NCBI GenBank assembly: GCA_019634145.1
Contig: JAHQVU010000071.1
Coordinates: forward strand, 1-32,926
DNA from: Micavibrio sp.
GTDB taxonomy: Bacteria; Pseudomonadota; Alphaproteobacteria; Micavibrionales; Micavibrionaceae
Direction: 5' to 3'
Length of the DNA: 32,926 nt
The notes beneath the pieces are model-generated. The model searched no databases, had not been told where the DNA came from, and saw only the letters and a program-made list of their open reading frames with translations. Position numbers and translations under genes: made by a program. Positions 4,026-31,116 of this stretch are shown here, in pieces (the stretch's first letter is position 1; the number at the start of each line of letters is the position of its first letter).

Positions 4026-5273
4026 ATGACAGGCGTTTCAACATATGGACGGGCATTAAGCCAGATGAGTTTTATCAAAGATCAAAACACGCTATTTTCA
4101 ACACTCTCAACGCAAATGTCTACGGGGCTGAAAACACAAAAATTTTCAGGGCTGGGTACGCAGGCGCTAGCAACACAGCGCGCGCGCACGGACATAAATT
4201 CGCTGGAAACATATAAAAACAATATCACGCAATCTGAAACCCGCATTAAAATGATGCTCAATGCGATTGAAGAGTTTAAGGCACAGGCCGAGAATTTTTC
4301 GAATACACTCGTTAATACAATGCAGGAAAGCACGCACCAAAACGGCGATAAAATTCTTTATGATAACCCACTAACACCCAATATAAATGAAGCCGAGGAG
4401 GTCGGCATGACCTCGGGCGATCTGGCAACGCCCTTGGAAACAGTACGCGATCTGGCCACAAATATGTATGATTTTATGACCGATCTTTTAAACGTAAAGG
4501 AAGTTGATCGCTATCTCTTATCAGGAACAGCAACAGATCAAAAACCCCTAAAGGACAGCTCAACCCTTGATTCTGCGATCAGCACTCTGATTGGCACATG
4601 GAAGGATGAAACGGCACCGACGATCAATGCGGATAGAACGAAAACCGAGGAATTGATCTCCGCTTTGGAATCCAGAACATCGACAACAAGGACGCCTAAC
4701 GCAATTACAGACACAATCATCGGCTTTAGCTCGACTTTAAGCAGCGGATCTGCCGAAAAAGTCACCATTCGAGTCGATGACCTCTCGGATGTAAACTATA
4801 CAGCCCTTGCCAATGATCAGTCCTTCCGCGACATTCTGGTTGCCGTAGCTTATTTTAAGAACGATGACCTCTACCCGATGGCCGATGTCTATGCCGAGCC
4901 TTACACACCGGGCGATCCTGTTTTGACAGACCCTGACACAGGTAAAGTTCTACAGGGCGCACCAGGTGATGATCTTGACGAAATGAAAGATAACTTCTTC
5001 GAAGTGTATAATGCTCTAACAACAATGGTTGCCAAAGCTATCGATGATATTGATCAGGTGCGTTTCTCGCTAGAGACCGCACGTGAACGATTGAACACGA
5101 TTAAAGAAAGTCATAGAGCCGAAGAGGCTGTTCTTCTAGAGACCATAGCCGATATCGAGCAAGTTGACACGAGTGAAGTTGCCATCAAAATCCAGATGCT
5201 ACAAATTCAACTGGATGCCTCTTACCGTATAACCGCTATGATGGGTGAGTTAAGCCTGACGCGCTTTATTTAA
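4026..5273 (+). CDS. flgL: Flagellar hook-associated protein 3 (FlgL)
   Basis: FlgL is the second hook-filament junction protein, sitting between FlgK and flagellin. The 415-residue product begins with a flagellin-like D0/D1 region (Ser/Gln-rich helix, LSTQMSTGLKTQKFSGLGT) and ends with a long helical segment (DIDQVRFSLETARERLNTIKE, then IQLDASYRITAMMGELSL) typical of flagellin-family C-termini. The ATG at 4026 follows AAGGAG; a second ATG at 4021 is out of frame and stops at once. The centre is longer than in enteric FlgL (about 317 residues), paralleling the enlarged FlgK. Its stop overlaps the convergent secretion-locus gene by 4 bp. Confidence 0.9.
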   Translation: MTGVSTYGRALSQMSFIKDQNTLFSTLSTQMSTGLKTQKFSGLGTQALATQRARTDINSLETYKNNITQSETRIKMMLNAIEEFKAQAENFSNTLVNTMQESTHQNGDKILYDNPLTPNINEAEEVGMTSGDLATPLETVRDLATNMYDFMTDLLNVKEVDRYLLSGTATDQKPLKDSSTLDSAISTLIGTWKDETAPTINADRTKTEELISALESRTSTTRTPNAITDTIIGFSSTLSSGSAEKVTIRVDDLSDVNYTALANDQSFRDILVAVAYFKNDDLYPMADVYAEPYTPGDPVLTDPDTGKVLQGAPGDDLDEMKDNFFEVYNALTTMVAKAIDDIDQVRFSLETARERLNTIKESHRAEEAVLLETIADIEQVDTSEVAIKIQMLQIQLDASYRITAMMGELSLTRFI

Positions 5274-7012
5274 GACGCAGTTTGAGGCTGGCGTATATTA
5301 ACAATTGCTGACTTGCTGTCATGAGCAGGAAGAATCGAGATTGCAGGAATTTCACCTTCAAGGCCATTCACAGCTAAAGCTTTTAATGCTTCATCAAATT
5401 GGCCCGTTGCAGCAATATTGGAAGACAAAATATAATCATGCTCAGCTTCCCAGTTTACATCATAACCTGAAACTTTCGCCCATGCCGATATAGTTTCCTT
5501 AAGACTCTCGCCTTTACGTGCTTCCCATACGCCATCAGAGCCTGCCGCTGGCACGGCCACGCTGTTGATTGTGTTCTGATCGTCCTCGGATAAGGTAACC
5601 TTAAGAGCATGCTCACTCACTTGAACAACAAGTGGCTTCGGCTTACGATCCAAAGAAACTTTTTGCTGCATTTTTTTTACAGTCACGCTTGGCTGGCCTT
5701 TCGTGGCCTCACCCGGATCCTGAACAATCGCGCGACTGGGAATGCCGGTTGCTGTCTCTATAGCGTTCAATTGAGCAGCCAATGCTTGATCATCCTGCCC
5801 CATAATTGCAGAATCATGACCAGCCGCTGAATCGATCATCGCTGCCTGCTGCGCGGCCATCTCGGTATTCAGTAAAGTCTGACGCTCGCCCATGATATAA
5901 ACTTTATTTCCCTTAACATGCGCTGATAAGCTCAATGGCGCAATCATGCCCTGTAATGTCTGAATCCAGCTCGCCCCTCCTGACCATGATACTTTTGACC
6001 CGGGATTAATATTACTACCGAATGAAACAGTATAATCAGCGGGCAGGATTTGTTGTAGAGCAATCGCCAACGGCACATCACTACCAAAACCTTCAACCTT
6101 ATCAGTGGTGCCCGCAGATTCAACAGCGCCAATTGCTGGCATCTGTGCTAAATCTTGTAAGTCCATATTCGCCTGCGATAATGGAGCAGGCTTTTGAACT
6201 GGCGCAGCATCGGTCAAATTAGGCGCTGTTGAAATTTTCAAAGATGGTGAACCAGCTTTCTCTAGCATAGATGCCTGAGCGTTTTGCTTTACATCTACCT
6301 TATAATTGATGTTCTCGTCCAGTTTACCGATAGCGCTTTCCGGTGCATTCTCAGACATCACGACCTTAGTTTGAGGGTGAATAGTCTCAGCAGTAACTGT
6401 CGTTTTGACCACTGGTTTCGCAGGCTCTACTGCACCAATTGGCGGTAAAGACTTCGTCTGATTTTGCGCCGAAGTTGTTTCAATCGGCGGCAGAGGCGGC
6501 TCTATGTTTTGATGTGTTGGCTGTTCACTCGGATAGAGCGTTTTTCTATGAATAACCTGCTCTTGCGCTTGCGGCATATGGGCAGACGCATTGGATACAA
6601 CCCTTGTCTTCACAACCGGCGCTTGCTGTCGCGCTTGAGGTGGTTGATTAACGCCTTGCTGAACTTCAGCCGAATATGGTGGAGCTTGAGGTGCAGGCTG
6701 TTGAACAGCTTGCGGAGCCTGCTGAACAGAGTTTTGTGAAATTTGCGGCACATTTGAACCTGGAAGAGCAGGCATAGGTAAAACCGCCTGATCACTCTCA
6801 TTTAAAGGAGCTATTTCAACAGCAGGGGCGGGTATTGCGCCAGGTGATGTCACTGCATTTTGAGTTGGTGCTTTAACAGCTTGAGGTGAAGGCACCCATT
6901 CAAAGCCAGCTACAGCCTGCCCATGAATTAAAAAGGCCGCACATCCGAGCATGAGTGTGGAAAAAATACGTTTTGCTGGCTTAGCTTGAAAAAACTCTAC
7001 GCTTGTCGGCAT
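5270..7012 (-). CDS. Exported Pro/Gln-rich protein with two TcpQ/STN-like modules, type IVB locus
   Basis: The 580-residue product begins with a basic and hydrophobic leader ending near AVAG (residues 15-36), indicating export. Residues 40-300 are low-complexity Pro/Gln/Ala. Two compact modules follow, at about 308-375 (VPLAIALQQILPADYTVSFG to VYIMG) and 493-576 (GVWEARKGESLKETISAWAK to VNIRQ). Both resemble the TcpQ C-terminal / secretin N-terminal (STN) fold found in periplasmic parts of pilus and secretion outer-membrane complexes. The start has a strong GAAGGGGTG ribosome-binding site. It is the last gene after dotD-dotC-dotB-icmT, so I infer an outer-membrane or periplasmic component of the same type IVB apparatus. 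I cannot match it to a named Dot/Icm protein. DotD has a related fold, so several such modules may stack in one cap. Confidence 0.75.
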   Translation of the reverse strand: MPTSVEFFQAKPAKRIFSTLMLGCAAFLIHGQAVAGFEWVPSPQAVKAPTQNAVTSPGAIPAPAVEIAPLNESDQAVLPMPALPGSNVPQISQNSVQQAPQAVQQPAPQAPPYSAEVQQGVNQPPQARQQAPVVKTRVVSNASAHMPQAQEQVIHRKTLYPSEQPTHQNIEPPLPPIETTSAQNQTKSLPPIGAVEPAKPVVKTTVTAETIHPQTKVVMSENAPESAIGKLDENINYKVDVKQNAQASMLEKAGSPSLKISTAPNLTDAAPVQKPAPLSQANMDLQDLAQMPAIGAVESAGTTDKVEGFGSDVPLAIALQQILPADYTVSFGSNINPGSKVSWSGGASWIQTLQGMIAPLSLSAHVKGNKVYIMGERQTLLNTEMAAQQAAMIDSAAGHDSAIMGQDDQALAAQLNAIETATGIPSRAIVQDPGEATKGQPSVTVKKMQQKVSLDRKPKPLVVQVSEHALKVTLSEDDQNTINSVAVPAAGSDGVWEARKGESLKETISAWAKVSGYDVNWEAEHDYILSSNIAATGQFDEALKALAVNGLEGEIPAISILPAHDSKSAIVNIRQPQTAS

Positions 7013-7103
7013 AAATTCACCCCTTCAAAAGGAAATTTTATAAAACTATTTTAGTAATTAAGCGACAATAGCGAGGTGACAGGTAAAATTCAAGAAAAGA
7101 AAA

Positions 7104-7421
7104 CTAACCGAAATCTTTAAATTTACGCTTATAGACACCAATAACACCTGGACGACCCACTCCCCAGAATGTCTCCACAATTTTTTGACGGAATGTCCGC
7201 ATAGCAGCAGGAAAAGTCATGCCTTTATTCTCCAGAAAACGGAAAAACAACAGAAAGACAACCGTTAGTAAAACCGTGGAAAGACGCGCATAAACCAAAA
7301 GAAGAGGAAGCGGTAGGGCCGCACGCGCATCGAAGGAGAAAAAACGCACAGTACGCATAGAATTACGCCAATGCCAATTCAACGCATCCTGAGTATCTTG
7401 TAACTGTTTAGCCTGTGACAT
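7104..7421 (-). CDS. icmT: IcmT/TraK-like type IVB secretion membrane protein
   Basis: IcmT is a small inner-membrane protein of Dot/Icm systems (TraK in IncI plasmids). The 105-residue product has the family hallmarks: an N-terminal HWRNSMRTVRFFSFDARAA block, two adjacent hydrophobic segments (about residues 36-62), and a basic C-terminal tail ending in YKRKFKDFG. Legionella IcmT is somewhat shorter (about 86 residues). It lies 66 bp downstream of dotB, as in Legionella and IncI loci where DotD-DotC-DotB-IcmT correspond to TraH-TraI-TraJ-TraK. The ribosome-binding site (AAGGT) is weak. IcmT is needed for effector export and host-cell exit in Legionella; a role here is inferred from family. 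Confidence 0.8.
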   Translation of the reverse strand: MSQAKQLQDTQDALNWHWRNSMRTVRFFSFDARAALPLPLLLVYARLSTVLLTVVFLLFFRFLENKGMTFPAAMRTFRQKIVETFWGVGRPGVIGVYKRKFKDFG

Positions 7422-7487
7422 TTTATGACCTTGAAATATTGACTGCTATAATCAGACTAAAAGAAGAGTATTAAAATCCCTTTAATT

Positions 7488-8642
7488 CTAACCTGTTGCT
7501 GATGATAATAATAGATAGTGACGGCGATCAATTTCACCACGTTCAAAATAAATCTCTGCAGAGCGCGCCATAGTTTGGCCATAAGAGGAGACCATACGCT
7601 GAATTTCATTCGGCCATTCGGTAAAATCCATATCCATAAGCTTTTCCCGCACTTCATCAGGAAACTTCATCCATTCACGTACACCCACACGCCCACCGCC
7701 AATGCGTGGCGCCAGAGCTTGCGTAACAATTAAGCGTAACGTTTCCATCAAAGCAATCGCACGCTCTTCTCGCTCGCTCATATCATAGCTAGAAAGCATG
7801 CGTTGAACGGTATTGGCCACACCCATAGTATGCGTTGTCGTATACACAGCGTGGCCCGTTTGCGCAGCCTCAATCGCCGCAGAAATTGTCTCACGGTCAC
7901 GTGCCTCCCCAACCAAAATAATTTCCGGTTTACGGCGAAGTGCATTTCTCACACCATCTGAAAAGTTTTTTAAATGACGCGGAATTTCACTCTGCGATAC
8001 CAATGATCTGGGGGAGTGGATGGAATCATAAGTAAATTCGATCGGCGCTTCATAGGTCAGCATCTTGCCGCACCCTTCTGGCCGCTCCAAAAGCATCCGA
8101 TTACCTGCTGCAAGCAATGTCGATTTACCTGAACCTGTAGCACCTGTTACAACAACCATGCCTTGTCTAGGCGCCCATGAATCGCGAATAGACTCCTCGA
8201 TTTTCAGATCATCCATTGTCGGCGGCTCTGAAGGCAAAGCACGCATCGTAATCTGCGCGCCGTCGCGGCCTTTAGAGAGAATTGCAGTGATATTTACACG
8301 AAAACGTACCTTCGAATAACGATCAGGACGGATTTCGTAAGATACATCCAGATCCATCCCAGAAGCCAACCGCGCTGCCGCTTCTGGTCCATAAATTCGC
8401 GCAAGGAAAACGGACATATCCGCCGCATCAATATTGCGAAATGTTCCGGGATAAAGGTGGCCATGAATATCATTATAAACAGGACGATCACTTTGAATGG
8501 TAATATCGGAAGAGCCCTGCTTCACGCACCATAAAAGAAAAGGGTCAATATGATCGGTCATAAAGCGATCCGGCTCATCCGCCCATGTTTCGGCAAAATT
8601 GTCCTCAGGTTTGAGGAGGCTTATCGGTTTGCGGGCTTCCAT
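7488..8642 (-). CDS. dotB: DotB, type IVB secretion ATPase
   Basis: DotB is the cytoplasmic hexameric ATPase of Dot/Icm secretion, related to PilT-type motors and to TraJ of IncI plasmids. The 384-residue product has an N-terminal PAS-like region (about 35-140), a Walker A motif GATGSGKST at 167-175, a Walker B-like EIILVGEARD, and the His-box region AAQTGHAVYTTTHT. Length fits Legionella DotB (about 377). Its start overlaps the 3' end of dotC by 22 bp, which suggests translational coupling. All nucleotide-binding motifs are intact, so the protein should be active. Confidence 0.92.
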   Translation of the reverse strand: MEARKPISLLKPEDNFAETWADEPDRFMTDHIDPFLLWCVKQGSSDITIQSDRPVYNDIHGHLYPGTFRNIDAADMSVFLARIYGPEAAARLASGMDLDVSYEIRPDRYSKVRFRVNITAILSKGRDGAQITMRALPSEPPTMDDLKIEESIRDSWAPRQGMVVVTGATGSGKSTLLAAGNRMLLERPEGCGKMLTYEAPIEFTYDSIHSPRSLVSQSEIPRHLKNFSDGVRNALRRKPEIILVGEARDRETISAAIEAAQTGHAVYTTTHTMGVANTVQRMLSSYDMSEREERAIALMETLRLIVTQALAPRIGGGRVGVREWMKFPDEVREKLMDMDFTEWPNEIQRMVSSYGQTMARSAEIYFERGEIDRRHYLLLSSATG

Positions 8643-9493
8643 TCATCCGCTCCGGTTATAAGCTCAGGCACACCTGTGATCTGAACCGCGCGATCTCCTA
8701 CACGCATTTCGTTGCCGCCGCCGGTTACACCGCGGTCAATTTGCAAAGCCTTGGGAGGTGAAATCATACCTTGAGACAACAACATCCTATAACGCACCAT
8801 GCCTTCAAAATCAGCAGTCAGCAGCGCAAGATCATCTTGGAAAATCTCATTGGCCTGTCGAACACCTTCATCCCAACCTCTATTCACATACTTAATCCAA
8901 AGATCACGCTCTTCTCCATTTGCAGGACGTAAAACATCCGGCGGAGGTTGAACCCTACCCCACTCACGCTCAAGATAAGCCTGCCAAGTGCGCGGTGATG
9001 AAACTATGCGCGCATTTTGAATGATGTGGTAAATTCGATCCGATACAGCCGCTTCCTGCGCTCCATATTCAATGATCATCGCATTTGCTGATTCGCTGAC
9101 AATTGGCGGCTCGATCAACAAGCCTGATGGCGCGGGAATAAGCAATTGACCGAAATCATAGACCTTATCCATATAGCGCGCACGCTGCTTAAGCTCCTGA
9201 CGAATAGAAAAGGTCTGCCATGCAAGACCGCCACGAGCACCATATGATGTCGCCGCTTCAATCTGTGCATCACGGCGAATATCCATCGGCATTGTCGAGA
9301 TCGGGCCAAAAGGCTTGTCTTCCCTTTCAATCCACTGCAATTCTTTAATGGGTTGCGGACGAACAAGATCTTCTTCTGTCAAAAAACCTTTTTCCAAGGC
9401 AAATGAGCTAGTAGGCACAAGCATACAGCCGGCCACTAAAGCCAACCTTATGCCATTTTTCATTTCAAAAAATTTAAAGCCTTTGAGAGCCAT
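8621..9493 (-). CDS. dotC: DotC, outer-membrane lipoprotein of the type IVB core
   Basis: With DotD, DotC helps place the DotH ring in the outer membrane of Dot/Icm systems (TraI in IncI plasmids). The 290-residue product matches the family along its length, including ATSYGARGGLAWQ near the N-terminus, the central DLWIKYVNRGWDEGVRQANE and FEGMVRYRMLLSQGMISPP, and a C-terminal DRAVQITGVPEL. A lipobox-like LVAGC lies in the leader, so lipidation is likely, although an SSFA signal-peptidase-I site follows and both readings are possible. An alternative ATG ten codons downstream lacks a ribosome-binding site. It is 25 bp from dotD and overlaps dotB. Confidence 0.9.
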   Translation of the reverse strand: MALKGFKFFEMKNGIRLALVAGCMLVPTSSFALEKGFLTEEDLVRPQPIKELQWIEREDKPFGPISTMPMDIRRDAQIEAATSYGARGGLAWQTFSIRQELKQRARYMDKVYDFGQLLIPAPSGLLIEPPIVSESANAMIIEYGAQEAAVSDRIYHIIQNARIVSSPRTWQAYLEREWGRVQPPPDVLRPANGEERDLWIKYVNRGWDEGVRQANEIFQDDLALLTADFEGMVRYRMLLSQGMISPPKALQIDRGVTGGGNEMRVGDRAVQITGVPELITGADEWKPANR

Positions 9494-9518
9494 TAATCTT
9501 GCCCAAACCTAATTTGAT

Positions 9519-10028
9519 TTAACCACCGATACCCGTAGTCGGCGGATAGTGAATTTCTACCATACGGCGCCCTGCATCGACTTTGACATCCCCACGCACA
9601 CCCAATTGTAACCCAATATCGCGAAGGACATCTATAACAGGTCTATTCTCGACATCAACCGAAACAACAACCGGAACTGGTGGTGGCGCGCCAATTGTCA
9701 GGAACTGATATCCCGCACGCTCTGCCAAAGTTTTTGTAATCGGCTCAACAGGACCAATCCAGTTTACAGAGATCGCACGACGCAATTCCGCAGGGGCTTG
9801 CCCGACATTCCCAACTTGGGCCGTCGGCGCTCTTGCCTGCTCTACAGCTGCGAGAGTTTGCAAAGCATTAGATGCTCTGTCCGCACTCTCTGCCAGCATA
9901 ATGGAAACCTTGTCGGGGGCAGCTACAACTTGCGGCTTACCGCCGTCATGAAAAACCGGCACATTGGTGCAACCAGCCAGTATAGAAACAGCCAGAATCG
10001 ACAGTGCAAGGGATTTATTACGCGCCAT
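9519..10028 (-). CDS. dotD: DotD, outer-membrane lipoprotein with secretin-like fold
   Basis: The 169-residue product carries a clear lipoprotein signal (LAVSILAGC, Cys20). After it comes a domain running from AISVNWIGPVEPITKTLAER to the C-terminal RMVEIHYPP, which corresponds to the secretin-N0-like domain of Legionella DotD (163 residues) and IncI TraH. DotD and DotC assist DotH assembly in the outer membrane. It is the first gene of the dotDCB-icmT group. A rho-independent terminator lies between it and the upstream lytic transglycosylase gene, so a promoter is expected at about 10030-10080, although I see no convincing -35/-10 pair there. An AGGA ribosome-binding site precedes the ATG. 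Confidence 0.88.
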   Translation of the reverse strand: MARNKSLALSILAVSILAGCTNVPVFHDGGKPQVVAAPDKVSIMLAESADRASNALQTLAAVEQARAPTAQVGNVGQAPAELRRAISVNWIGPVEPITKTLAERAGYQFLTIGAPPPVPVVVSVDVENRPVIDVLRDIGLQLGVRGDVKVDAGRRMVEIHYPPTTGIGG

Positions 10029-10082
10029 TTTTGATCAAATCCTAAATTCGTGTATTTTTCCGATGGAAAAACTTTAGAAAAA

Positions 10083-10112
10083 AAAGCCTCATTTAGAGTT
10101 AACGCAGGCTTT
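10083..10112 (-). terminator. Rho-independent terminator after the lytic transglycosylase gene
   Basis: On the minus strand, AAAGCCT and AGGCTTT form a 7-bp stem with a 16-nt loop, followed directly by a run of T. It separates the transglycosylase unit from dotD. The loop is larger than usual, so termination may be partial. Confidence 0.5.
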
Positions 10113-10202
10113 CTCCAGAATCAAGATTAATAACCCTGCGACATACTTGCAAGTTAAAGCACAGCTCTTAATACAAGCCATCCACAAAGAACTTGAGAAT
10201 AT

Positions 10203-10613
10203 CTACTTTTTAACGAGTCCGTTATCATGCAAGATCTTAATAACGCGTTTTTTGTATCTGGTACCGTATTTTGGCGTACGGGAATGATAATGCGCTATTG
10301 CTTGTGATAAATTGCGCGTTTCATCCAGATGTGATCGCAGTATCCAGGCCGCCACGCCCACATTTGTACACGCATCATCGCGCACCCATTTGCGCGCAAC
10401 GCTCTCGCTCACACCCCAGCGTTTGGCCAAATCAGGCATCCAGATTGTATTAATTTGCATAGGGCCAAGATCAAAGGAGCCGTTCGTGTTGGAAACTTCT
10501 TGCCCAACCTTACCCCCTTCGGCCTTATAAATCCCCACAAGCACCGCTGGCGGCACAGAATAAGTCTGTGACGCTAACATCAAACACGCAGCTAAAACTG
10601 TACTTGCGGACAT
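10203..10613 (-). CDS. VirB1/TrbN-like lytic transglycosylase
   Basis: The 136-residue product has a hydrophobic leader (residues 1-18) followed directly by an SLT-type lysozyme-like domain: the predicted catalytic Glu32 in YKAEGGK, the SFDLGPMQINTIW block (residues 46-58), and a C-terminal AIAHYHSR motif. Such enzymes cut peptidoglycan glycan strands to open a path for an envelope-spanning machine. They are standard accessories of type IV secretion and conjugation loci. Its start lies 8 bp after the stop of the upstream Pro/Gln-rich gene, so the two are co-transcribed. Confidence 0.85.
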   Translation of the reverse strand: MSASTVLAACLMLASQTYSVPPAVLVGIYKAEGGKVGQEVSNTNGSFDLGPMQINTIWMPDLAKRWGVSESVARKWVRDDACTNVGVAAWILRSHLDETRNLSQAIAHYHSRTPKYGTRYKKRVIKILHDNGLVKK

Positions 10614-10621
10614 TTCCCTAA

Positions 10622-11893
10622 TTACTCCCCTTTCTTGAAGAATGACATAGGATCGCCGCCCGTGTCACCACCTTCTTCGCTTTCATCACCAGTATTTTGT
10701 GCTTGCGGTGGTGGTGTGAACACTTGTGGTTGCTCTTGTGCAGGAGGAGGATGGGCTTGAGGCTGCGGAGCTGCAGCTGGTAGAGCCGGGTCCTGCGGCT
10801 TGGAGGCAAACATCGACATAGGGTTTCCACCCGCTGCCTGTCCTTGAGCGGGAGGAGCCTGTTGCTGCTGCATTGGTGGCGCTTCAGGCGTGTCAGCCGG
10901 TTTGTTAGCAAACATCGACATCGGATTTCCACCCGCTGCCTGTCCCGAAGCTTGCTGCTGCTCAGGCTGTGAAGGTGGCGCTTGCTGTGGCGCTGTTTGT
11001 TGTGGCTGGGCTTGGAATATTGGCGGTGGCGCTGTTTGTTGTGGTTGCGCAGACGAAGCCTCCTGCTGTATCGGTGCTTGGGACAAGTCTTGAACCGGCG
11101 CAGTTTCTTGCGGCGCGGGCACAGACGCGCCGCCTGCCGGCATAACTGAATCTGAAAGCGCCTCTACAAATGCGACCTGCATATCAAAGGCTGCCCAAAC
11201 CGCGTCCAAAGACGGCGCTTCGCCCCCTTTAATGATTTCACGTTCATGTGCATCAGCATAAATTTGCGCAATGGCAGGTAATAATCCGAGCTCAATACGC
11301 TTAGCCTCATCACCCGATAAGCCAGGCGCTAATGTCTCGCGCATGGTTTGGGCGCGCTCGGTCAAGCGCTTCGTAATCTCGATCACCAGCTTTTGTTCAT
11401 TTTGACCGAATGAAAACTTTGACAATGCCTGCGCAACCGGCACAAAAGCACGCACATACTGAATATGCGATTGATTAATATCGACCACACCGCCATCAGC
11501 ACTCGCCTTTTCCATCCGCTCAATATTAGAATCTGTCGGTGTAAAATTATCGGAAAAAGTCAGAACAGGCTGCAGCGAAGCCACAATCCTTTTGATATCC
11601 GCATCATCAGGAATATTTTTCTTCTTTTCGAGCTGCCCCGCCATTAAAGGCGCAGCCAACGCGGCCAGCGCTACACGCAAGGAATCATCACCTTCCTCTG
11701 CAGGATTGACCTCCATCACATTGCCAAGCTCGATACTGGCCTGCACAGTTTTACCCAGCATCGCCGCCATCATCTGGGCATCACGCTTCATATCAGCTTC
11801 ACCGCTTTGCGCCGATACCTCTTTAACCGCCCTAAGGAGAGGACTCCCAATTTTGTCGATCATCTGCAATAAATACGCAGCGCGCTTATTCAT
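10622..11893 (-). CDS. Unrecognised protein with Pro/Gln-rich tail and three GGxPMSxF motifs
   Basis: I do not recognise this 423-residue protein. Residues 1-250 are predicted helical and soluble, with no signal peptide or membrane segment, so it is probably cytoplasmic. Residues 255-400 are disordered Pro/Gln/Ala. Three copies of a short motif sit in or after this tail: GGNPMSMF at 321-328, GGNPMSMF at 355-362 and GGDPMSFF at 412-419, the last almost at the C-terminus and after an acidic stretch (DESEEGGD). Repeated linear motifs on a flexible arm suggest docking to a partner, possibly several copies of a ring protein. Its place just upstream of the transglycosylase and dotDCB-icmT suggests a role in secretion, but that is inference. 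Confidence 0.75.
   Translation of the reverse strand: MNKRAAYLLQMIDKIGSPLLRAVKEVSAQSGEADMKRDAQMMAAMLGKTVQASIELGNVMEVNPAEEGDDSLRVALAALAAPLMAGQLEKKKNIPDDADIKRIVASLQPVLTFSDNFTPTDSNIERMEKASADGGVVDINQSHIQYVRAFVPVAQALSKFSFGQNEQKLVIEITKRLTERAQTMRETLAPGLSGDEAKRIELGLLPAIAQIYADAHEREIIKGGEAPSLDAVWAAFDMQVAFVEALSDSVMPAGGASVPAPQETAPVQDLSQAPIQQEASSAQPQQTAPPPIFQAQPQQTAPQQAPPSQPEQQQASGQAAGGNPMSMFANKPADTPEAPPMQQQQAPPAQGQAAGGNPMSMFASKPQDPALPAAAPQPQAHPPPAQEQPQVFTPPPQAQNTGDESEEGGDTGGDPMSFFKKGE
10806..10945 (-). repeat. Two-copy 38-bp repeat encoding the GGNPMSMF motif
   Basis: Positions 10806-10843 and 10908-10945 are identical at 36 of 38 bases. They encode the two internal GGNPMSMF motifs of the surrounding gene. 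The similarity at DNA level points to a recent internal duplication of the motif unit. Confidence 0.75.
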
Positions 11894-11962
11894 GACAGCC
11901 CTTAAACCGTTTTAATTTCATATACATATTAGAAGTCTAAACAATTCCACAAATATGGGCAA

Positions 11963-11981
11963 GTACGGGCTTAACCCGCAC
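11963..11981 (-). other. Intergenic hairpin between the DsbC-like and Pro/Gln-rich genes
   Basis: GTACGGG and CCCGCAC form a 7-bp stem (one G-T pair) with a 5-nt loop. No T-run follows on the minus strand, so it is not a clear terminator; it could stabilise or process the mRNA. Confidence 0.3.
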
Positions 11982-12005
11982 ACTAAATACCCAGTGATAG
12001 AAAAA

Positions 12006-12839
12006 TTATTTGGATGGCGCGATGTCGGCTAAGAACTGAGATAGGTTGTTCGGCGTTCCGCGCACGATCTTCACCTTACCGTTTTGAGCGCGATAAACAA
12101 TCATCGGCGTTGCATCGAATTTCCATGATTGCATGATAGACAAATTACGCTCTACACCTTGTTGATTAATATCACTACGCGCTGGTAAAGCTTCTTCCTT
12201 ATTCATATGCTTCATCCAGCGCTCTTCTGGATTCGGCGTTGCAATCAAAAATGCGGCCTGCGCTTTTGTTTCTTCTTTAAAGCCTATCGGAACAAGACGA
12301 ATTTGCACCCGGCCGTTTTCCAGAGCCTTGGCATCAACAACCTGTTTCACAAATTCATGACAGTGCGGACATTGCGGATCGATAAAGGCATATACAACAG
12401 GCGCACCCGCTTTACCCAGCGCCACCCAGTTACTCTGGCTTACATCTGAAAACATTTGCTCGGCCGGAGATTTAAGAGCGCTCGCACTGTTAAGCTCTTT
12501 CATATTCGGGCTAACACCCACCAACTCGTCCAACATTGTATCCCCGCCAGCGCGAAGACGCTCAACCTGTTTGGTTGTCTGAATCTTGCCGTTTTTATCA
12601 AACAAAATCCCCATGATCATGCCTTCGCCATCAGGCTGTACATAGAAATATTGCTCGACCCCACCTTTGATCAAAAGCCAACCATCAAGGCCAAAATCAT
12701 TCCCGAGATAACGAACCTGTGCACCTTGGCTTACTTCCGTTTTCAACGGTGCGGGCAAAGCGGGGATAGCATCTTGCGCATGAGCCAATGGGATCATCGC
12801 AGTAAAAGACAAAAGGGTCAGGGCTAAAAATCTAGGCAT
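12006..12839 (-). CDS. DsbC/DsbG-like periplasmic thiol:disulfide oxidoreductase
   Basis: The 277-residue product has a signal peptide (residues 1-21, ending AHAQ). An N-terminal region of about 110 residues resembles a DsbC dimerisation part, and a thioredoxin-fold domain carries the CPHC active site at residues 157-160 and the cis-Pro loop (DATPMIVY). These enzymes oxidise or shuffle disulfides in exported proteins. It is the most upstream gene before the type IVB genes, 112 bp from the next one, and similar thioredoxin-fold proteins occur in IncI conjugation loci. I infer that it folds Cys-containing components of the secretion apparatus. A GGAAAG ribosome-binding site precedes the ATG. 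Confidence 0.85.
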   Translation of the reverse strand: MPRFLALTLLSFTAMIPLAHAQDAIPALPAPLKTEVSQGAQVRYLGNDFGLDGWLLIKGGVEQYFYVQPDGEGMIMGILFDKNGKIQTTKQVERLRAGGDTMLDELVGVSPNMKELNSASALKSPAEQMFSDVSQSNWVALGKAGAPVVYAFIDPQCPHCHEFVKQVVDAKALENGRVQIRLVPIGFKEETKAQAAFLIATPNPEERWMKHMNKEEALPARSDINQQGVERNLSIMQSWKFDATPMIVYRAQNGKVKIVRGTPNNLSQFLADIAPSK

Positions 12840-24613: not shown

Positions 24614-25111
24614 ATGACCCACATCCATTTTATTCTAACCGGCGGGACGATCGACAAGGCCTACAATCCCGCAGATGAGCGCCCGATGCCGAACGCGGAA
24701 TCAGTTATTCCGGCCTATATGCGCGATACGATCAAGCCACATGGCGAGATCACCTTCGAAACCATTTGCATGGTTGATTCGCTGGATATGACACAAGATA
24801 TGGAACAGCAAATCGCGGCTGCCGCCGATAAGGCAAAGGCAGATAAAATCGTGATCGTATGCGGTACATCGCGCATGGCCGATATAGCCGCCAAATGCGA
24901 CGCAGCCAATGACAAGACCATCGTATTTACAGGTGCGATGATTCCGCTTAAGGAATTCCCGATGAGCGATGGCGGCTTCAACCTCGGCTACGCACTGTCG
25001 CAGGCACAAACATTACCCGCAGGAACCTATATCTGCATGAATGCTCACACCTTTAAGACTGGCGAAGTCATCAAGGATGTCGCTGCATCGCGCTTCGAAG
25101 CGCTCACATAG
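24614..25111 (+). CDS. Half-length asparaginase-like protein
   Basis: The 165-residue product corresponds only to the N-terminal domain of type I/II L-asparaginases (usually about 330 residues). It keeps the first catalytic threonine in LTGGTID (Thr12), a DSLDMT segment and TGAMIPL. The second signature, normally HGTDT, reads CGTSR (residues 83-87): the threonine is kept but the catalytic aspartate is replaced by serine. A lysine in GEVIKD may match the catalytic lysine. With no C-terminal domain and a changed triad, asparaginase activity is doubtful; the fold may bind an amino acid or serve another amidohydrolase function. It is 10 bp downstream of pyk and probably co-transcribed. Confidence 0.8.
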   Translation: MTHIHFILTGGTIDKAYNPADERPMPNAESVIPAYMRDTIKPHGEITFETICMVDSLDMTQDMEQQIAAAADKAKADKIVIVCGTSRMADIAAKCDAANDKTIVFTGAMIPLKEFPMSDGGFNLGYALSQAQTLPAGTYICMNAHTFKTGEVIKDVAASRFEALT

Positions 25112-25177: not shown

Positions 25178-26113
25178 TTAATTCACGCTGGCAACCTGTG
25201 TACCCAAAGATGGCTTGTCATGCAGCCACCATGCCTGGCGATTAATCGAGAAGATCGGCTGATAGCGGTTACCGCTGCTGGTCGGCACCAAAGTCTTTGT
25301 CTGGTTATCGAGAATATATGCACCGCTTTCGGTATAAACTACCAACACCGCGTGCGGGATGTTCTTATATGTGTCTTGAACGATCATCACCCGCAGACGC
25401 TCTTCAGGAACGCCCATCGCCCGCAACGCCGTATATTTGGCAATTGCAAAATCCTCACAATCACCACCACGCTGAATAAACTCAGCAGGCGTGGCCCAAT
25501 AATCGGACTTACCCCAATTCCTATCATCAGTGATATAACGGACCTTATTCACCATGACATTGACCTTATCAGCCAAATCCTTGATCGAGTTATATTGTAT
25601 AGTTTGAAGCTCGCGCTGCCACTGACGAATAACGCCCGCATTGCGCGTGTCTTGCAAGTCACGCTCGAAACGCTCGAACATACCTGTCCATTTGGTAAAA
25701 GCGCTCAAATTCGCCGATCTCTTTTCAGATGTACCATAGAGAGCCGGATATACGCTCACGCGTGAAAATTCGGATGTAATGCCACTTAAAGCCAGCTTTG
25801 CCGGCACATCAGCAATCGCCTCTGCATGGGCTTTCTTGCCGCTACCGCCTGAAAAGCTAACGCCCAATAAAAGAAGCGCAGCGCATGTACGCAAAGCATA
25901 TTGTTTGGTTAAAATAATTGAAAGTTGTCTTGGAGTAATCACGGCGCGGTCAATCAAAAGCTGACCCAGCGGTTTTTTGGAAATTTTTTGCTCGTTCAAA
26001 ATATTGCGGAGATCATTCGGCGAAATCATGCCTTTTGTAACAAGAACTTCTCCCAGTTTCTGGCGTCTCAACGATCTTTTTAAAGTATTAAATATTCCTT
26101 GCCCTTGACGCAT
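25178..26113 (-). CDS. MshEN-like domain, membrane segment and LapG-type periplasmic cysteine protease
   Basis: The 311-residue product has three parts. Residues 19-71 contain two tandem repeats of the MshEN pattern (KLGEVLVTKGMISPNDL, then PLGQLLIDRAVITPRQL), which in type II secretion and MshE ATPases binds cyclic di-GMP. Residues 72-90 form a hydrophobic segment followed by an AHAEA signal-like site. Residues 120-300 are a bacterial transglutaminase-like cysteine protease (BTLCP, LapG family) with the triad Cys219 in GGDCED, His254 in IPHAV and Asp269 in ILDNQ. LapG releases surface adhesins and is normally held off by the separate c-di-GMP receptor LapD. Here sensor and protease appear joined. 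Sensing is inferred: the first repeat has Lys for the usual Arg and the second has Ala for Gly. A GGGGAAG site precedes the ATG. Confidence 0.8.
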   Translation of the reverse strand: MRQGQGIFNTLKRSLRRQKLGEVLVTKGMISPNDLRNILNEQKISKKPLGQLLIDRAVITPRQLSIILTKQYALRTCAALLLLGVSFSGGSGKKAHAEAIADVPAKLALSGITSEFSRVSVYPALYGTSEKRSANLSAFTKWTGMFERFERDLQDTRNAGVIRQWQRELQTIQYNSIKDLADKVNVMVNKVRYITDDRNWGKSDYWATPAEFIQRGGDCEDFAIAKYTALRAMGVPEERLRVMIVQDTYKNIPHAVLVVYTESGAYILDNQTKTLVPTSSGNRYQPIFSINRQAWWLHDKPSLGTQVASVN

Positions 26114-30447: not shown

Positions 30448-31116
30448 GTGAAAAAGCCTTTTAAATTTGCTCTTCTAAGCGCGGCTATAATTTCTCTGGC
30501 AGGCTGCACAGCAGCTTTTCTCGATACAGCAGCTCACGGTATTTTCCTTCAAGAAGAGACTAAGCTTTTAGAAAAAAACTATGCCGCCGCAGATTATCTG
30601 GTACAGCAAGCCCGCCACTTTGCAAAAGATGATGACTTGGTTGTCGCCCTTACCCTGACAGATATAGATCAACCCGACATGACGTCCGAATTTGGTCGCC
30701 TCGTGCCCGAGCAGGTCGGAACACGTCTGGCGCAACTCGGCTATAATATGAACATGAAGAATGTCGCAGCCGTCGAAACGAATTATGTAGGCTATAAGCC
30801 GGTTAAAGGCGAGCGTACTGATTTTTATCTCGGCGGAAATTATAAACGCAATCGAGCGGACATGGATATAAGCCTGAAAATGACAGATGCTAATAATGGG
30901 CAGATCGTTGCTGTTTTCAACTACAGCCTCCCTATGACGCGAGATATTGCCGACATGACACAGCCTAAGCCGATTATTATGAGGTTGGAGCCATCGCAAG
31001 GCGCAGCCTATGGCCAGATGCCCAGCGCCCCTGTAACAATTGTTGAAAGCACCATCACAAACAAAAACACGGCCACGACCGCAACGCCCCCTACCCCTGC
31101 AGAGCCTTTTCGATAG
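30448..31116 (+). CDS. FlgO-like outer-membrane lipoprotein
   Basis: The 222-residue product has a lipoprotein signal (IISLAGC, Cys20) and a FlgO-type domain: a helix (NYAAADYLVQQARHF), a strand (DLVVALTLTDID) and the characteristic SEFGRLVPEQVGTRLAQLGY segment. In Vibrio, FlgO works with FlgP and FlgT at the flagellar outer-membrane base; related domains also occur in non-flagellar lipoproteins. The flagellar genes at the left end of the window make a motility role possible but not proven. The C-terminus is Thr/Pro-rich. The start is GTG after AGGGAAG. The 3' end overlaps convergent alaS by 26 bp. Confidence 0.75.
   Translation: MKKPFKFALLSAAIISLAGCTAAFLDTAAHGIFLQEETKLLEKNYAAADYLVQQARHFAKDDDLVVALTLTDIDQPDMTSEFGRLVPEQVGTRLAQLGYNMNMKNVAAVETNYVGYKPVKGERTDFYLGGNYKRNRADMDISLKMTDANNGQIVAVFNYSLPMTRDIADMTQPKPIIMRLEPSQGAAYGQMPSAPVTIVESTITNKNTATTATPPTPAEPFR

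Follow-up and report, generated by a model that had tools for sequence, protein, structure and literature searches.

The closest described counterpart of the locus analysed here is the LapD-LapG-LapA system of Pseudomonas fluorescens, with structures of Legionella LapG (4fgo, 4fgq) and of a complex (4u65). It combines a c-di-GMP receptor, LapD, with a protease of the BTLCP fold, LapG, which has a catalytic triad and acidic residues adjacent to the cysteine, and with a large type I-secreted adhesin that carries [TAP]AAG and uses an LssB/LapB-type exporter. The DvhG-DvhD system of Desulfovibrio vulgaris likewise pairs a BTLCP with a c-di-GMP receptor. This receptor is unrelated to LapD and is a separate dCache-PAS-HD-GYP membrane protein, while DvhG has an anchor and a long linker and, in the accessible part of the source, no sensor domain; LapG and DvhG both cleave [T/A/P]AAG between its two alanines (PMC13090378).

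Domains of the MshEN/GSPII type (MshE, 5htl; PilF, 8pdk; PilB; NfrB) are built from two motifs of 24 residues separated by five residues, which form a four-helix fold with defined contact residues. As their partners, the accessible text of PMC5013675 names ATPases, glycosyltransferases and cytoplasmic signalling domains, and no protease. LIC_20173 of Leptospira interrogans is another single protein that unites a domain of c-di-GMP type with a predicted protease, but its domain is PilZ rather than MshEN, its protease, PrsW, spans the membrane several times, and the case is a prediction only (PMC12943098). HvyA, which restricts capsulation in Caulobacter, is a BTLCP with a signal sequence and a Cys-His-Asp triad; the cell cycle limits it to G1, and the accessible part of the report mentions no sensor domain (PMC4241560). 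A PF06035 match was present in the Caulobacter vibrioides control genome. In the accessible portions of the open-access literature no description was found of an MshEN-LapG-type fusion or of a c-di-GMP-gated signal peptide, and texts naming both MshEN and LapG treat each separately.

The window, i.e., the whole stretch of 32,926 nucleotides that was analysed, is a contig of Micavibrio sp. (GCA_019634145.1, JAHQVU010000071.1), the genome being a draft of 87 contigs that is 92% complete. A preliminary description had proposed that one gene of the window fuses a sensor, a hydrophobic segment and a protease, and this fusion was confirmed as a 311-aa ORF at 25178-26113. In contrast to the LapD-LapG-LapA system, a LapD is missing, the MshEN receptor is part of the protease polypeptide and precedes the putative signal peptide, the protease scores below the LapG equivalog cut-off, and its gene is located away from the exporter locus.

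Architecture of the fused protein

The following features were assigned to the ORF and its parts:
25178..26113, minus strand: whole ORF, MshEN, signal peptide-like segment and BTLCP (LapG-like) protease, 311 aa, ATG start
26066..26095, minus strand: N-terminal helix preceding the sensor, residues 7-16 (AlphaFold2)
25901..26059, minus strand: MshEN c-di-GMP motif pair (24+5+24), residues 19-71 (NF053729 match)
25850..25933, minus strand: single predicted helix spanning MshEN helix 4 and the hydrophobic segment, residues 61-88 (AlphaFold2)
25844..25888, minus strand: h-region of a probable Sec signal peptide, residues 76-90 (hydropathy)
25823..25831, minus strand: AxA signal peptidase I-like site, residues 95-97, Ala97 at -1 (conservation)
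25247..25603, minus strand: BTLCP / Peptidase_C93 domain, residues 171-289 (Pfam and LapG fold)
25457..25459, minus strand: catalytic Cys219 (GGDCED), invariant
25352..25354, minus strand: catalytic His254, invariant
25307..25309, minus strand: catalytic Asp269, invariant

Conservation was determined with a set of 81 sequences, comprising the window protein and the best 80 of 556 named relatives, and with a separate set of 50 sequences that overlaps it. The full-length AlphaFold2 model, based on a 64-sequence alignment, had a mean pLDDT of 86.6. The closest solved structures by sequence were PilF, MshE and PilB for the N-terminus and, for the protease part, the LapG of Legionella and another chain of LapG type (4u65).

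The tandem MshEN-like repeat that had been proposed was borne out by NCBIfam NF053729 (c-di-GMP_motif, MshE-related), which matched residues 19-71 over its whole length (model 1-53 of 53) with 51.9 bits at a cut-off of 38. A comparison of the predicted structure with MshE had been suggested, and it revealed that the region has the fold. With VIA-align, residues 17-75 were superimposed on MshE with c-di-GMP (5htl) with a Z score of 8.1, an rmsd of 2.0 over 59 residues and 36% identity, and on PilF with c-di-GMP (8pdk) with a Z score of 8.0, an rmsd of 1.3 over 57 residues and 35% identity. A Z score of about 8 is by itself no strong result for a helical domain, but sequence, residue register and motif concur. 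In the Foldseek ranking MshEN-type chains stood low because LapG fills the list, and they were revealed by VIA. A single-sequence model of residues 2-84 yielded similar helices at low confidence (pLDDT 63.5).

The residue register, in which residues 7-65 of 5htl are aligned to residues 17-75 of the window protein, allowed the contact positions to be compared. MshE Arg9, Leu10, Gly11, Leu25, Leu29 and Gln32 correspond to K19, L20, G21, L35, L39 and Q42, and MshE Leu39, Gly40, Leu54, Leu58 and Gln61 to L49, G50, L64, L68 and Q71. Thus, 11 of 11 contact positions are present in the window protein if Lys is allowed at position 19. This lysine is no defect, because the GSPII-B domain of PilF has Lys at the first contact position and binds c-di-GMP with an affinity of 6 nM; the consensus has been broadened to (R/K/L)LG (PMC11731258). 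At least 10 of the 11 positions were found in 80 of the 81 sequences, the exception (L185) lacking its start, and Gly21, Leu35, Gly50, Leu68 and Gln71 each occurred in 80 or 81. The published relaxed pattern was present in both halves in just 15 of the best 80 homologues; Gln42 was substituted in 20 of the 81 sequences, and motif II varied at residues 48 and 57. The isolated MshEN_N domain of Vibrio (residues 1-62) has an affinity of 0.35 uM, and thus binding does not require another subdomain (PMC5013675). Sequence and model together suggest that the MshEN region would bind c-di-GMP in the cytoplasm.

In the helix that precedes the sensor, residue 7 was I, F, V or L in 49 of 49 sequences and Gly6 was conserved in 41 of 49. 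Ligand-induced shifts of PilF were reported for the start of helix 1 and the orientation of the subdomains, and none for helix 4, in the accessible part of PMC11731258.

The sensor is followed by what had been called a membrane segment. Instead, this segment has features typical of a signal peptide that is cleaved off. Its best 19-residue Kyte-Doolittle mean was 1.52 (sd 0.24) across the 81 sequences, close to the value of 1.61 (sd 0.14) for ten TolC-like N-termini and well under that of 2.48 (sd 0.23) for 13 HlyD-type anchors, both control groups having been hand-picked from loci of the same order. Ala97 was present in 81 of 81 sequences and is the sole invariant residue within 76-120, a stretch with a median entropy of 2.61 bits. 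The residue at position 95 (-3) was small in 80 of 81, and residues 96 and 98 were variable. Both a signal-type h-region and small-x-Ala at -3/-1 thus appear to be present; two of the ten TolC-like control starts show no AxA by the pattern used. Judged from hydropathy, AxA conservation and these hand-picked controls, the segment is more like a cleavable Sec signal peptide than an anchor, so that the mature protease, with the invariant alanine at -1, is probably severed from the sensor. Many of the BTLCP-only relatives listed have an ordinary N-terminal signal peptide by eye, while some with long 5' frames could not be judged, and in the paralogue L234, which lacks MshEN, start and signal peptide are still similar.

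The spacing between Gln71, the last sensor residue, and Arg/Lys75 was fixed in 81 of 81 sequences, the length of residues 62-86 was unchanged in 80 of 81, and the distance from Gln71 to Ala97 ranged from 22 to 28. In the AlphaFold2 model a low-confidence stretch (residues 92-97, pLDDT below 50) lies between the continuous helix and the protease. Because the spacing is constant, the helix is continuous and the Gln71-Ala97 distance is variable, sensor and signal seem to be rigidly coupled, while the part beyond the signal is loose.

The protease half was also found as described, with an intact Cys-His-Asp triad. Pfam Peptidase_C93/BTLCP (PF06035) matched residues 171-289 with 80.9 bits (cut-off 27), and VIA-align to LapG 4fgq gave a Z score of 17.3 with 33% identity over 155 residues. 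The triad Cys219-His254-Asp269 was complete in 81 of 81 sequences and in 50 of 50 of the overlapping set, in which Asp218 (50/50) and Glu220 (49/50) match the acids that flank the cysteine in DvhG and LapG. The LapG equivalog NF045674 reached 105.3 bits, which is under its cut-off of 320, and therefore the protease is named LapG-like and not LapG.

Distribution, phylogeny and gene neighbourhood

A homologue at an E-value of 1e-6 or better was detected in at least 135 of 142 genomes of the Micavibrionales, including at least 97 of the 98 good-quality ones; the fused gene is near-core in this order, and because of this frequency the fusion is not a chance product. Six of the seven genomes without a listed protease match are 62-86% complete. 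The seventh, G065 (98% complete), had neither a protease nor an adhesin match among the matches listed, and its best exporter E-value was merely 2.5e-88; it is consistent with a pairing of protease and adhesin, as one genome only.

The best 80 of 556 named relatives were labelled Micavibrio or were metagenome-assembled genomes of Alphaproteobacteria and Rhodospirillales/Rhodospirillaceae, with one Proteobacteria. The order and class names used here follow these titles, whereas NCBI taxonomy files Micavibrio under Bdellovibrionota. In a class sample at least 149 of 385 genomes had a match; among the matches listed, four were full-length, namely those of the four genomes of this order, and the others covered the protease part or fragments of it, with the exception of G476. 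This genome, which matched the sensor half, was rejected as a further case of the fusion, since its protein has multiple MshEN domains and the stretch that was read contains no protease. In a phylum sample at least 281 of 398 genomes had a match, and the window's own genome was the only full-length one among the matches listed. No relative on a viral contig was confirmed.

A phylogeny of the protease domain united the fused family in one clade (99/87), with the MshEN-less paralogues of the order (L061, L231-L234) nested within it, which suggests that the sensor was gained once and lost in later events. The clade adjoined BTLCPs of the same class and was separate from LapG-like proteins of other classes; the tree has long branches among the distant tandem copies and among the LapG-like sequences from other classes, and six rows labelled as BTLCP only (e.g., L201_p0, L189_p0) are fused copies. 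The homologue of genome G103 (L061:3050-3850) lacks MshEN and begins at the hydrophobic segment. A second, distant BTLCP without MshEN was observed downstream of the fused gene in six of the best 80 loci (L169, L178, L184, L188, L189, L201).

The neighbourhood of the protease gene was compared in the best 80 loci. A divergent gene of about 507 aa, hldE-like according to the window's own neighbour, occurred in 65 of them, and a gene of about 476 aa, pyruvate kinase-like by position and length only, in 42. Among the 16 commonest neighbour families, no adhesin or exporter was recognised by eye, and in the loci read the protease gene was not near the exporter.

Several other features of the window were observed. 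The region 5270-12839 contains a type IVB block (Dot/Icm or conjugation-like) with a T2SSE-family ATPase, T4SS_TraI, DotD, a lytic transglycosylase, a thioredoxin-fold protein and a TcpQ-domain protein; for the genome of M. aeruginosavorus ARL-13, a type IV system was reported as being without evidence in the accessible part of PMC3189940. A 165-aa protein at 24614-25111 matched the asparaginase N-terminal domain (PF00710) only, the C-terminal domain not being matched, and a FlgO-domain protein (47.2 bits) is encoded at 30448-31116.

Candidate substrate, exporter and c-di-GMP proteins

The preliminary description had proposed to look for a LapA-like adhesin with a TAAG/PAAG-type site, and such a protein was found in the window's own genome. 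This adhesin contains SPAAG and EPAAG and appears to be split across two contigs (C45, with the sites, and C41). In six stretches (L074, L077, L080, L081, L083, L089) the genes for the giant adhesin and for TolC-like, LssB-type and HlyD-type proteins are clustered. Five adhesins were scanned: T1SS-143 repeats exceeded the cut-off in all five, the type I C-terminal target domain was found in three, the BapA/Bap/LapF adhesin model was exceeded in two, and all matches to the BapA prefix were under the cut-off.

At least one [TP]AAG site was present in 58 of the 58 genomes with an N-terminal region that was read, i.e., 15 of 15 from the main set, the own genome, 3 of 3 further genomes and 39 of 39 held-out ones. 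The main set was derived from 20 stretches, of which L092, L096, L097 and L104 gave no adhesin N-terminus; thirteen stretches together with L085 and L089 make up the 15. All 15 had at least two sites within the first 320 residues. The sites amounted to 34 in 4,800 N-terminal residues versus 2 in the remaining 27,861 residues read, and for each of the 15 N-termini the count was reached by at most 0.0015 of shuffles. The three further genomes (L105, L107, L108) had one or two sites each. An alignment of 16 N-termini with 623 columns contained only two invariant columns, which are the di-alanine of the last site. A profile of the N-terminal region matched at least 117 of 135 genomes; 18 were without a match among the matches listed, including two of the window's own genus (G060, G062), in which the exporter is close to a contig end. 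The 39 held-out genomes were chosen from the 117 matched ones with a profile that contains the site and hence favours sequences having it, and 39 of 39 had at least one site and 28 of 39 at least two. Based on these sequence features, the giant type I-secreted adhesin is the likely candidate substrate of the protease.

Two further ideas about adhesins were rejected. A joint loss of MshEN and adhesin had been considered for G103, which has no adhesin at the exporter locus, but an adhesin with a PAAG site is encoded elsewhere in this genome. As G103 retains both a protease without MshEN and this adhesin, the sensor is not required for the pairing. A second adhesin family was discarded as a substrate, as no [TP]AAG occurred within the first 250 residues of the three proteins read. 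Proteins of this family have a weak match, below the cut-off, to a LapA-like retention module and are encoded beside a second type I exporter. Such loci (L076:2700-8522, L079:1257-8292, L091:13415-18456) include a CHASE2-cyclase (by Pfam for L076), and that of L079 also has an EAL protein with cyclic-nucleotide binding; a link from cAMP to c-di-GMP is possible there. In the own genome (L063) an EAL protein of similar look was seen by eye beside a cyclase-like ORF.

An LssB/LapB-type ABC exporter (TIGR03375) exceeded the cut-off in 123 of the 135 genomes and in 0 of 14 controls; that of the own genome is on contig C41 (903 bits). The periplasmic domain of LapD (LapD_MoxY_N, PF16448) was found in none of the 135 genomes of the order. 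Because none of the controls gave a match in this search, it was repeated in ten LapG-bearing genomes of the phylum sample, and the domain was found in 10 of 10, in several cases within 1 kb of a LapG-like gene. Thus, the search for a lapD gene elsewhere in the genome, which the preliminary description had named as a check, yielded no LapD-type periplasmic domain. Its remark that no LapD, GGDEF or EAL gene is nearby holds for the window, but not genome-wide for GGDEF and EAL. The own genome has eight GGDEF matches, of which seven are above the cut-off and two are parts of one ORF, and four EAL matches. Inspected by eye, one of the EAL proteins is a GGDEF-EAL protein, one has a cyclic-nucleotide-binding-like N-terminus, and the other two are divergent, one of them with an N-terminal hydrophobic hairpin; a LapD-like layout was absent from all four.

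Possible mechanism and competing explanations

It is tempting to speculate that the order has a Lap-type circuit without LapD, in which c-di-GMP acts on the export or release of the protease that sheds the giant adhesin; we give this reading an even chance. LapD would not be needed because the protease carries its own cytoplasmic c-di-GMP receptor. The MshEN domain would bind c-di-GMP on the cytoplasmic side, and its last helix is predicted to continue straight into the Sec signal peptide, so that ligand binding could be relayed to this helix. At high c-di-GMP, membrane insertion or signal-peptidase cleavage would be held back and the protease kept from its substrate. When c-di-GMP drops, the mature protease would be freed into the periplasm and would cut the di-alanine of [TP]AAG near the adhesin N-terminus; the cut adhesin would leave the surface and the cell would detach. 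The sign of control should, by analogy, be that the adhesin is kept at high and shed at low c-di-GMP. We infer that the giant adhesin is cleaved by this protease, while insertion or release as the controlled step is the most speculative part. A signal peptide gated by a second messenger is put forward tentatively, with a somewhat lower than even chance: the n-region of the Sec signal peptide would contain a folded domain, and c-di-GMP bound there would determine whether, or when, a periplasmic protease is inserted or freed.

The earlier view that sensor and protease stay joined by a membrane segment and that the nucleotide controls the protease directly was not supported as stated, the segment being signal peptide-like with an invariant Ala97. 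As the protease is probably cut from the sensor in the periplasm, the sensor could act only before or at the cut, which favours control of insertion or release. The main rival, which appears rather unlikely, is that residues 76-90 remain as an uncleaved anchor and that c-di-GMP on MshEN alters how active the tethered protease is in the periplasm or how far it reaches, in the way that LapD acts on LapG. It would provide a fast switch, whereas gating of export would be a slow one, because protease that has been exported remains active, a point that counts against the favoured mechanism. Also against the latter are the ligand-induced shifts of PilF, which lie outside helix 4, the looseness of the sensor motif, the pairing of protease and adhesin without MshEN in G103, the 18 genomes that had no adhesin match among those listed, and the distance of the protease gene from the exporter in the loci read. 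A tether would also agree with the single predicted helix from the sensor into the segment (residues 61-88) and with DvhG of D. vulgaris being a membrane-anchored BTLCP, but most DvhG orthologues are said to have signal peptides (PMC13090378). It is further opposed by a hydropathy well under that of the HlyD-type anchors, by the invariant Ala97 with a small residue at -3, and by the low-confidence stretch 92-97 that parts the helix from the protease.

It is improbable that MshEN is no c-di-GMP sensor but a degenerate or structural N-terminal extension of a constitutively secreted protease. MshEN-less forms exist in the order (G103, L234), the relaxed motif pair occurs in only 15 of the best 80 homologues, Gln42 is often replaced, and binding has been lost in degenerate MshEN domains, for example that of XpsE (PMC5013675); yet five contact residues are nearly invariant and all but one of the 81 sequences have at least 10 of 11 contact positions. 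A target other than the giant adhesin, comparable to Caulobacter HvyA, an alphaproteobacterial BTLCP that restricts capsule formation, is likewise improbable. The nearest BTLCP relatives beyond the order are mostly of the same class and not the LapG-like proteins of other classes, the score is under the LapG equivalog cut-off, and the gene is away from the exporter in the loci read. In contrast, no feature of the adhesin N-terminus is better conserved than the LapG-type di-alanine sites, and the LssB-type exporter is above the cut-off in 123 of 135 genomes.

If control of export or release by c-di-GMP is true, it would be the third and most compact route, besides LapD and DvhD, from cytoplasmic c-di-GMP to the proteolysis of a surface adhesin: one polypeptide would perform the inside-out signalling that otherwise needs LapD plus LapG, and would time the shedding of the adhesin. 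The position of the sensor directly ahead of the signal peptide raises the question of whether a second messenger can gate a signal peptide. The named records of the order include Micavibrio aeruginosavorus, an epibiotic predator that attaches to its prey, and the circuit suggests, in a form that can be tested, how a predator of this kind might release its prey. In this species GMV0107 (2892 aa), the largest hemolysin-related protein, is encoded just upstream of TolC, HlyB and HlyD (PMC3189940), and it is read as the same adhesin from gene order and size, not from sequence comparison. Its reported expression index was 16.9 in the attachment phase and only 0.3 in the attack phase (PMC3189940).
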